Below, piece after piece: positions 14,048 through 17,295 of a stretch of DNA of 64,000 nucleotides. How positions within the stretch are numbered: the first letter of the stretch is position 1; each line of letters starts with the position of its first letter. The position numbers and the translations under genes are program-made. The notes under the pieces are model-generated. The model ran no database searches. It saw only the letters and a program-made list of their open reading frames with translations, and was not told the DNA's origin. This DNA comes from Acidobacteriota bacterium (GTDB lineage Bacteria > Acidobacteriota > Thermoanaerobaculia > Multivoradales > Multivoraceae). The stretch spans positions 62,001-126,000 of the forward strand of contig JAPPFP010000006.1 of assembly GCA_028877275.1 (NCBI GenBank). Reading direction: 5' to 3'.

Positions 14048-14144
14048 GGTCTCAGGTGGTCTAGCACGGCGACAGGAGTTCGGCACGGCGTGAATGGGTA
14101 GCGCAGAGCCTAGTCCGTTGCCGCCCGCGGCTACACTCCGAACC

Positions 14145-14681
14145 GTGCAGGTTCTCGACCCCTCCTGGGAGGGCTCTCCGCCGCCGCTCTCGCAGGCGCT
14201 CCGCCTGGGAGCGCTCGCCGGAGTCGACGTTGCCCTGCTTTCGAACGGAAAGGCAGGTGTGGCACCGCTCTTCGACCACCTGGAGTCGCTGCTGCGGCAA
14301 CGCTGGAAGGTGGCCGCGGTCGAGCGCGCGACGAAGGGGAACTACAGCGCCCCGGCCGAGCGGGAACTTGTGCGCCGTCTGGCGAGGCGTCGCCTGGTCA
14401 TCACCGGCGTCGGCGACTGAGGGAGCTGCTCGTCGTGCAGTCTGCACGACGCCGTGACTTTCGAGCGCGAAGGTGTGCCCGCGGTCGGCGTGATGACGTC
14501 GGCGTTCGTCGATGGCGCCGAGTTGATGGCGCACGTCTGCGGGGCCCCGGACTACAGGTTCGCCGTGGTCGAGCATCCGATCAGCAGCGCGACCGACGCG
14601 GAGCTCCTGGAACGGGCGGAAGAGATCGTGAGGCAGGCGGAGGAGCTGGTGCTTGCCGGGGGGCCGCTGGGCACGCCGTGA
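14145..14681 (+). CDS. UGSC-family selenoprotein; in-frame UGA at 14418-14420 proposed to encode selenocysteine
   Basis: ORFs 14094..14420 and 14454..14681 are in the same frame. Readthrough gives ...RRLVITGVGD-U-GSCSSCSLHDAVTFEREGVPAVGVMTSAFVDGAELMAHVCG..., matching the UGSC motif. Start GTG 14145 (ATG 14094 possible). Confidence 0.85.
14418..14451 (+). promoter_or_regulatory. Putative bacterial SECIS element (UGA plus hairpin)
   Basis: UGA 14418-14420, then 9-bp perfect stem CGTCGTGCA (14431-14439) / TGCACGACG (14443-14451) with loop GTC; apical loop begins 19 nt after the UGA and starts with G. Confidence 0.75.
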
Positions 14682-15814
14682 CGGGTTCGCGACAACGAGC
14701 GGGTGTTGTAGCCGCAGCGCTTGCCGCAATGCTCACGGCACCGGCGACAGCCGAGAACGGTGTCGTGCTGGCCGAGTTCGTCTTTGACGACGCGCCGCAT
14801 CCCGAGTGCCACGCCTCGACGATCGCCGAGACGGCTTCGGGCGCTCTCGTCGCTGCCTGGTTCGGCGGCACCGCCGAGCGGAACGCGGACGTCGGCATCT
14901 GGTTCAGCCGGCTTGGCGCCGACCGTTGGACGGCCCCCGTCGAAGTGGCCAACGGCGTCCAAACGGACGGCCGCCGCTACCCGACCTGGAACCCGGTTCT
15001 CTACCAGCCGCCCGGTGACGCCGCGCCCCTGCTCCTCTTCTTCAAGGTGGGGCCGAGCCCGCCGGAGTGGTGGGGGATGGTCATGGAGTCGGAGGACGAC
15101 GGCCGCACCTGGAGCGAGCCCCGGCGGCTTCCGGACGGCATTCTCGGACCGATCAAGAACAAGCCGATCACCCTCCCCGACGGCAGTCTGCTCGCCGGCT
15201 CGAGCATCGAGAATGCGCCCGAGCCGCCGGCCTGGCGGGCGCACTTCGAGCGGTCGCCCGACCTGGGCCGGACCTGGACGCGCACCGAACGGCTGGCCGG
15301 CAAGACGGCGGCCGGCGAGGACTTCTGGATCATCCAGCCGACGATCCTGATGCTGGGCGACGGCGAACTCCTGGCGCTGTTCCGGTCCAAGCAGAGTCGC
15401 ATAGCGGCGTCACGTTCCGCCGACCAGGGTCGCACCTGGGGGCCGATCTTCGCCACCGGCCTGCTCAACCCCGACGCAGGGGTCGATGGCCTCACGCTGG
15501 CCGATGGCCGGCACCTCCTCGTCTACAACCACAAAGTGCGCGTGGATGGCGCCTGGGCCGGTTCCCGGTCACGCCTGAACGTAGCGCTCTCGGACGACGG
15601 CGACACCTGGGACGCGGCGCTGATGCTGGAAGACCAGGACGGCGAGTACTCCTATCCAGCGGTCATTCAGGGCCGCGACGGACTGGTCCACGTGACGTAC
15701 ACGCACCGGCGGACGCGCATCCGGCACCTGGTCCTCGACCCGGCCGCGCTCACGAGGCACCCGATGTCCGGAGTCGAGTGGCCGGCGAAAGCGCCGGTCC
15801 TGCCTCCCGAGTGA
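14678..15814 (+). CDS. Secreted sialidase-like / exo-alpha-sialidase family protein
   Basis: Leader VTGSRQRAGVVAAALAAMLTAPATAENG; Asp-box-like repeats (SEDDGRTWSEPR, SPDLGRTWTRTE, SADQGRTWGPIF, SDDGDTWDAAL). GTG start overlaps the UGSC stop. Confidence 0.88.
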   Translation: MTGSRQRAGVVAAALAAMLTAPATAENGVVLAEFVFDDAPHPECHASTIAETASGALVAAWFGGTAERNADVGIWFSRLGADRWTAPVEVANGVQTDGRRYPTWNPVLYQPPGDAAPLLLFFKVGPSPPEWWGMVMESEDDGRTWSEPRRLPDGILGPIKNKPITLPDGSLLAGSSIENAPEPPAWRAHFERSPDLGRTWTRTERLAGKTAAGEDFWIIQPTILMLGDGELLALFRSKQSRIAASRSADQGRTWGPIFATGLLNPDAGVDGLTLADGRHLLVYNHKVRVDGAWAGSRSRLNVALSDDGDTWDAALMLEDQDGEYSYPAVIQGRDGLVHVTYTHRRTRIRHLVLDPAALTRHPMSGVEWPAKAPVLPPE

Positions 15815-17295
15815 CCGCGGGCGCCGATCTCGTCGTCTTCGTCGCCTACCTGGCGGCGGTGGTGGCGCTCGGCCTCTCGCTGGCCAGGCGGAGCGGAACG
15901 GCGCGTGGCTTCATGGTCGCCGGTGGAGCGCTGCCCGGCTGGGCGGTCGGCATGTCGATGTTCGGCACGTTTCTGTCCAGCAACACCTTCATCGGCGTGC
16001 CCGGACAGGCGTACGGGGGCAACTGGAACGCCTTCGTCTTCTCGCTGTCCCTGCCGGTGGCGGCGTTCCTTGCGGCGCGCTGGTGGATCCCGTTCTATCG
16101 ACGCGGCGACGCGGTGTCGGCCTACCACCACCTGGAGGCGCGGTTCGGCCGCTGGGCGCGGACCTACGCCGTTGCCTGTTACCTGCTGACGCAGTTCGCG
16201 CGGGTCGGCTCGATCCTGTTCGGCGTCGCCCTGGCGATGAACGCCCTGACCGGCTGGCCGGTGGCCTGGATCATCCTGAGCACCGGCGTCGTCGTCACGG
16301 TCTACACCCTGGTCGGCGGCATCGAGGCGGTGATCTGGACCGACGTGATCCAGAGTGTCGTGCTGACGGTCGGCGCCCTGATCGTCGGCGGGCTCCTGAT
16401 CGCGGACGCGCGAGGCGGATTCGGCGGACTGCTCGAGACAGCGCAGGCGGCGGAGAAGTTCTCCCTGGGCAGCTTCACGTTCGACTTCACGACGTCGACC
16501 TTCTGGGTCGTCCTGGTCTACGGCCTGTTCATCAACTTCACCAACTTCGGAATCGACCAGAGCTACGTCCAGCGTTATCACGCGGCCGTGACCGACCGTG
16601 CCGCGTCTCGCTCGGTGTGGCTGGCCGCGGGCCTCTACCTGCCGGTTTCGGCCGTCTTCTTCTTCATCGGCACCGGGCTGTTCGTTGTCCTTCAGGGACA
16701 GCCCGAGGCGGCCGGTCTCGCCGCCGATCAGGCCTTCCCGCACTACATATCGACCCGGCTGCCGGCCGGCGCGGCGGGGTTGCTCATCGCGGCGCTGTTC
16801 GCGGCCGCGATGAGCAGTATCGACACCTCGTTCAACAGCTCGGCCACGGTGTTCCTGTCGGACATCTACCGGACGTACTTCCGGCCCGAGCGGGGCGCCG
16901 ATGGCGGCGAGGCCGAGGATCTGAGGGTGCTGCGCCGGGCCACGATCGTCATCGGCGTTCTCGGCACGGGCGCGGCGCTACTGATGATCGGCGCGGGGAG
17001 TCTGCTGGACGTCTGGTGGACGGTCTCCGGCATCTTCGCCGGCGGACTGCTCGGACTGTTCGCGCTCGACCGGCTGGCGCCCCGGGCGGGCCGCGGCGCC
17101 GCCCAGGCCGGAGTGGCCGTTGGTGTACTGATCATCGTGTGGATGACGGTGTCGCCGCAGCTTGAGGGGAGTCTCGCGATGCTGCGGATTCCGCTGCACA
17201 GCTACATGATCACGGTCATCGGCACGCTCACGATCTTCGGTGTCGGTTTGCTGCTGGCCGGCCGGCGGCCGAGCCGCGGCGCTGCGATAGGGTGA
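15811..17295 (+). CDS. Sodium:solute symporter (SSS family; sialic acid or sugar type likely)
   Basis: RGFMVAGGALPGWAVGMSMFGTFLSSNTFIGVPGQAYGGNW...AMSSIDTSFNSSATVFLSDIYR; GTG start overlaps the sialidase stop. Confidence 0.9.
   Translation: MTAGADLVVFVAYLAAVVALGLSLARRSGTARGFMVAGGALPGWAVGMSMFGTFLSSNTFIGVPGQAYGGNWNAFVFSLSLPVAAFLAARWWIPFYRRGDAVSAYHHLEARFGRWARTYAVACYLLTQFARVGSILFGVALAMNALTGWPVAWIILSTGVVVTVYTLVGGIEAVIWTDVIQSVVLTVGALIVGGLLIADARGGFGGLLETAQAAEKFSLGSFTFDFTTSTFWVVLVYGLFINFTNFGIDQSYVQRYHAAVTDRAASRSVWLAAGLYLPVSAVFFFIGTGLFVVLQGQPEAAGLAADQAFPHYISTRLPAGAAGLLIAALFAAAMSSIDTSFNSSATVFLSDIYRTYFRPERGADGGEAEDLRVLRRATIVIGVLGTGAALLMIGAGSLLDVWWTVSGIFAGGLLGLFALDRLAPRAGRGAAQAGVAVGVLIIVWMTVSPQLEGSLAMLRIPLHSYMITVIGTLTIFGVGLLLAGRRPSRGAAIG

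Follow-up and report, generated by a model that had tools for sequence, protein, structure and literature searches.

The plus-strand frame at positions 14094-14681 of the window (the whole 64,000-nucleotide stretch of an Acidobacteriota genome analyzed here) ends with a TGA at 14679-14681 and contains a single internal stop, the TGA at 14418-14420. This locus raises the question of whether the internal TGA is a selenocysteine (Sec) codon within one continuous protein and, if so, what such a protein might do and with which partner.

One gene of the UGSC family and its start codon

When translated through the internal TGA from the ATG at 14094, the frame yields a product of 195 amino acids with Sec at position 109, in which the residues around the Sec are GVGD-U-GSCSSCSLHDAVTFEREGVPAV (read-through context, GVGD-U-GSCSSCSLHDAVTFEREG) and the motif is DUGSCSSCSLHD. 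The joined protein scored 162.6 bits against the PF24696 model "UGSC" (cut-off, 25 bits), with far lower values for each half, and 126.3 bits against the NF041046 model "UGSC family (seleno)protein," a narrow pass of the cut-off of 125. Separately, the halves reached 29 and 75.6 bits against NF041046, with the part upstream of the UGA matching positions 2 to 68 and the part downstream matching positions 70 to 145. Since the halves cover neighboring stretches of the same models in continuous order, the two open reading frames constitute one gene. An earlier note, made from the letters of this DNA, had assigned the frame to the UGSC family by the motif at the UGA and had described the sequence on both sides of the stop as protein-like and continuous, and the profile searches bear this out; it had also foreseen that ordinary callers would truncate or split the gene, and a standard gene caller does return two fragments.

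The start at 14094 given in that note has to be moved. In the seven genus genomes that bear the gene, a start codon is conserved at position 14145; it is ATG in one relative and GTG in the window and the other five. This codon is always followed by QVLDPSWEG and is preceded, 7 bases upstream, by a -10-like TANACT box (TACACT at 14132-14137, plus strand, in the window). Additionally, an upstream stop in locus L013 is too near to leave room for any earlier ATG. Based on the conserved GTG/ATG, the L013 stop, and the conserved box, the true start is almost certainly the GTG at 14145, which gives a coding sequence with a probable extent of 14145-14681 (plus strand), 178 amino acids, and Sec at position 92. 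A TANACT box so near the start suggests that the mRNA of this gene is leaderless. At the other end, the stop codon of UGSC and the start codon of the following gene overlap (GTGA) in the window and also in L050 and L051, which are the closest relatives of the window gene among the matches listed.

Decoding of the UGA as selenocysteine

The contigs were scanned with a pattern that starts after the Sec codon and that, therefore, has no bias toward TGA; the best 80 named loci were kept, and thus the set is not a census. Among these matches listed, the Sec codon was TGA in 80 of 80 loci, with no sense codon, across Acidobacteriota, Chloroflexota, Actinomycetota (Acidimicrobiia), Alpha-, Beta-, and Gammaproteobacteria, Myxococcota, SAR324, and Binatia. 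It was also TGA in all seven genus genomes carrying the window-type gene. The pN/pS ratios against eight close relatives were below 1 both upstream (0.03 to 0.21) and downstream (0.11 to 0.43) of the UGA, and by this measure purifying selection acts on both parts of the protein. The window genome (97.8% complete, 0.05% contamination) carries a tRNA-Sec with anticodon UCA (73.5 bits) together with selA, selB, and selD, and selA is present in all seven sampled genomes of the genus. A second UGSC gene with a TGA is found in the same genome at C4:6802-7299. The earlier note had read the UGA as Sec and had named the residue in homologs (Cys or Sec) and the selA, selB, selC, and selD genes as the places to look; both findings that it said would speak against Sec, a genome without the machinery and homologs with a sense codon, turned out the opposite way.

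A bacterial SECIS-like hairpin, CGTCGTGC-AGTCT-GCACGACG, lies at 14431-14451 (plus strand), 11 to 31 nucleotides after the UGA. Its apical stem pairs 14434-14439 with 14443-14448, and across 85 sequences the six apical pairs were formed in 509 of 510 cells. One pair exchanges G-C, G-U, and A-U (52, 27, and 6 sequences, respectively) and is unpaired in none, and columns 18-30 and 21-27 show compensatory changes; not every sequence retains the three outer pairs. The covariation score of the whole structure was higher than those of 499 of 500 shuffles and of every slid register. The single-sequence folding z-score of the window hairpin, only -1.25, is unremarkable, and the weight of the case for a SECIS element is therefore carried by the covariation. 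At L014:1684-1737 (minus strand), an apical pair reads G-C in place of C-G, and this exchange turns the second Cys of GSCxxC (position 115), otherwise almost invariant, into Trp, so that RNA structure apparently outranks this Cys. Altogether, we have very little doubt that the SelA, SelB, SelD, and tRNA-Sec of this genome insert Sec at the UGA at 14418, with the hairpin at 14431-14451 as the SECIS element.

Sec insertion is inefficient when selenium is scarce, and the UGA could on that account act mostly as a true stop, with the short N-terminal half as the main product and read-through as a minor, selenium-gated one. This is quite improbable, since the short form would lack most invariant catalytic-looking residues (UGSC, HD, and E), which are located at the UGA or beyond it, and shows no sign of separate conservation. 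The two fragments of the standard gene call would also fit a sequencing error or a pseudogene in decay and interrupted by a stop, which we reject as next to impossible: it is refuted by the TGA kept in all of the 80 listed loci, from many assemblies and phyla, and in the sister genomes, together with the selection on both sides, the covarying hairpin, and the full Sec machinery.

The window protein is a genuine selenoprotein and a further member of a published family. The UGSC family has been in the literature since 2008, both it and its UGA decoding have been published (PMC2398784, PMC13188914), and Pfam and NCBIfam models exist, so the novelty implied by the earlier note does not stand. A survey counted 255 Sec versus 21 Cys forms (PMC2398784). 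The window protein shares with the known UGSC (seleno)proteins (PF24696/NF041046; PMC2398784, PMC13188914) the pattern D-U-G-S-C-[ST]-[ST]-C-S-x-H-D, the small size, the UGA Sec codon, and a SECIS element; the difference is that its gene lacks the adjoining gene for the protein U1 (described below) found beside most members, and otherwise there is nothing substantial. The UGSC genes of Geodermatophilaceae belong to the same family but use Sec-UAG with a tRNA-Sec(CUA) (PMC5330540), whereas the window genome has the ordinary UGA/UCA combination. No UGSC relative was confirmed in viral contigs.

The probable partner protein U1

U1, a protein of about 350 amino acids, adjoins UGSC in 75 of the 80 loci among the matches listed, and in 67 of the 80 it lies directly upstream on the same strand. 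The five listed loci without an adjoining U1 are three whose contigs are truncated in the gene or close to it, plus the two close relatives of the window gene, L050 and L051. U1 contains the motifs GWTDGLPIVPPT, NAVMAGC, NGPIR, and GHPGK, and sequence searches of Pfam, NCBIfam, and PDB gave no match to it. In a set of 199 genomes of the phylum, U1 and true UGSC proteins co-occur in the same 19, with one extra genome holding a scrap of U1 at a contig end (Fisher, 1e-25 by genome and 1e-10 by genus; 7 genera). Two spurious UGSC matches were set aside in this count: the weak PF24696 matches in G134 and G151 fall within long frames, which we take to be NAD(P)H-hydrate epimerase/dehydratase, and were discounted as false. 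In genus g43 (family f33), UGSC and U1 are fused as proteins of about 600 amino acids.

The g43 genomes G037, G085, G113, G122, G180, and G196 each encode between 10 and at least 16 UGSC-domain proteins (loci L024 to L028, L038, and L184 to L186), mostly the fusions of about 600 amino acids, and at least some of these have Sec- or Tat-type export signals. An in-frame TGA is present in 67 of the 79 matches from this genus, and the non-TGA copies read have Ser, Gly, or other residues in its place, not Cys. A UGSC/Unknown_1 fusion from the Global Ocean Sampling data (PMC2398784) likewise combines a UGSC domain with a second, uncharacterized domain, which is probably U1. It was treated there as a rare fusion, whereas here the partner is a separate gene beside nearly every listed UGSC gene.

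Comparison of the UGSC and U1 profiles showed the two to be unrelated. The best PDB structure match of U1, 7xky (alpha subunit of a class I fumarase; E value, 6e-6), was set aside as a guide to its fold and not built on because the TM score was 0.27 to 0.32 and the rmsd was 15. Three Cys are expected for the Fe-S site of class I fumarases, and in U1 no more than one Cys is invariant and one nearly so.

The window UGSC gene has no adjoining U1, and its genome contains two U1 genes, on contigs C23 and C4. The U1 at C23:93790-94797 co-varies with the window UGSC (Spearman, 0.79; 73 pairs), and the C4 U1 gave a value of 0.01 against the window UGSC and likewise 0.01 against the C4 UGSC that it adjoins, which makes the C4 part of the comparison uninformative. 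G176, from the same genus, has neither a UGSC of the window type nor a U1 of the C23 type. Because of this co-variation and joint absence, the window UGSC and the C23 U1 most likely form a split pair. The C4 U1 (L183:4368-5825; G000 C4:7367-8824) is divergent from the genome's second UGSC gene, and its N terminus contains a thioredoxin-like stretch with CPTC, which is a weak match (TIGR01068; E value, 0.018).

Predicted fold, likely relation to GrdB/PrdB, and possible function

When the window protein was modeled with AlphaFold2 (67 sequences; pLDDT, 90.4; pTM, 0.82), strands and helices alternated throughout, with no beta-hairpin, and the Sec sat at the end of a strand, ahead of a helix. This is not the beta-alpha-beta-alpha-beta-beta-alpha topology of thioredoxin. 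The top PDB matches by Foldseek had flavodoxin-like, FMN-reductase, receiver, and GTPase folds, all weak and with modest E values, and no thioredoxin was among the top 50 PDB structure matches of the model. Like the Sec coding and the association with U1, the predicted non-thioredoxin fold is a computed result; the prediction is of a flavodoxin-like fold, against the fold proposed in 2008, which was called likely thioredoxin-like (PMC2398784).

The Sec-bearing half resembles that of GrdB (the selenium-bearing subunit of protein B of glycine/sarcosine/betaine reductase) and PrdB (D-proline reductase), which belong to PF07355. The Sec sites read VDAVLLTPV-U-PMCNQSVGLIQSVIEKHGIPT in the PrdB-like proteins of the phylum, VSAAILTSN-U-ATCSRCGATIAKAIEEAGIPV in GrdB, and CDAVIEALAD-U-GSCTSCSVHDTTQLEEMGLPS in UGSC, and in all of them UxxC closes a strand and is followed by a helix, whose last residues are E-x-x-G-[IV]-[PA], and then by another strand. 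Alignment of UGSC to the C-terminal domain of GrdB/PrdB by hhalign placed Sec on Sec with a P value of 8.8e-6 (probability, 83%) and, after masking of the Sec column and addition of UGSC sequences, again Sec on Sec with 1.7e-6 (90%), these being single-pair values from a comparison picked after the motif was noticed; a reversed control gave 0.036. UGSC and GrdB/PrdB are thus likely to be homologous, although distantly: the N-terminal parts are unalignable, the similarity is remote and limited to the Sec-bearing half, and the PF07355 profile did not match the window protein at an E value of 0.1. The window genome also has two PrdB/GrdB-like genes, at G000 C3:39944 (L164) and C17:353659, and the first, because it reads on past an in-frame TGA (PVUPNC), is probably another selenoprotein.

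To our knowledge, no biochemistry exists for any UGSC or U1 protein. In GrdB and PrdB, Sec is the nucleophile or redox residue, and the protein works beside a second, non-Sec subunit, a place that U1 would take for UGSC. By this analogy we consider it fairly probable that UGSC provides the selenium subunit of a reductase that consists of two proteins, is supplied by thiols, and works in the manner of protein B. The Sec of UxxC, located where a beta-strand ends and a helix follows, would be the nucleophilic or redox residue; the window UGSC would act with the U1 at C23:93790-94797, as GrdB and PrdB act with GrdE and PrdA, in a reductive step on a small substrate, and cellular thiols, e.g., the thioredoxin system, would re-reduce the Sec. 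What we infer here is that the two proteins form a complex, that the chemistry is reductive, and that thioredoxin is the donor, with hints of a thiol donor in the weak CPTC stretch of the C4 U1 and in a pyridine nucleotide-disulfide oxidoreductase gene that adjoins UGSC in L110. A GrdB-like pair has been implicated in cleavage of the C-F bond of monofluoroacetate (PMC10838667). U1 is unrelated to GrdE (hhalign P value, 0.39, against two GrdE sequences only), and the analogy to protein B is therefore incomplete: the partner there is GrdE or PrdA, and UGSC has U1 and no adjacent GrdE/PrdA-type subunit. UGSC is, moreover, widespread in lineages not known as amino acid fermenters, and the window gene lies away from U1, with neighbors, a sialidase-like protein and a symporter, that do not suggest an amino acid reductase.

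If UGSC were instead a stand-alone thiol-disulfide oxidoreductase or peroxidase-like protein with a thioredoxin-like fold, linked to U1 by pathway only, the UxxC motif and the fold assignment of 2008 (PMC2398784) would be accounted for. We regard this as unlikely, because the model has no beta-hairpin, the top PDB matches, all weak, are to flavodoxin-like and FMN-reductase folds and none is to a thioredoxin, and U1 is near-obligate and, in one genus, fused to UGSC.

The gene after UGSC in the window encodes a BNR_2 (sialidase-like repeat) protein (14678-15814, plus strand; PF13088, 277.3 bits), and an SSF sodium:solute symporter gene follows downstream in the same direction (15811-17295, plus strand; PF00474, 144.1 bits). 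This arrangement is common to L050 and L051 at least through the BNR_2 gene (PF13088, 275.8 and 271.5 bits). The stop/start overlap in all three loci and the symporter next to it could indicate that the window protein serves sialic acid or glycan uptake, but we find this more doubtful still, as the neighborhood is confined to close relatives. Elsewhere UGSC is found with U1, LysR regulators, family III CoA-transferases, TctC receptors, 3-hydroxyisobutyrate dehydrogenases, and glutathione transferases. The neighbors outside the window point at most to organic acid catabolism, and beyond U1 the neighborhoods are too diverse for a substrate to be named. Several Chloroflexota/Dehalococcoidia loci (L116, L118, L119, L122, L126, and L127) have UGSC followed by NuoE-, NuoF-, and NuoG/formate dehydrogenase-like genes.

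The gene call itself is a routine repair of a misannotated selenoprotein. The new parts are the near-universal pairing with U1, the likely relatedness to GrdB/PrdB, and the revision of the predicted fold, for which we found no describing paper in the literature searched, mostly outside subscription journals. UGSC is among the most abundant function-unknown selenoprotein families in aquatic microbes, and the U1 partner, the better fold, and the GrdB/PrdB link lead to a testable hypothesis for its function. Returning to the two-protein reductase, we tentatively propose that UGSC and U1 could represent an unrecognized class of two-subunit selenoenzymes, a distant cousin of the protein B of glycine and proline reductases, which would carry out Sec-dependent reductive bond cleavage or a similar reduction. 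Such a class would be present in Pseudomonadota, Actinomycetota, Chloroflexota, Acidobacteriota, and others, with at least 10 copies of the fused form per genome in one genus.
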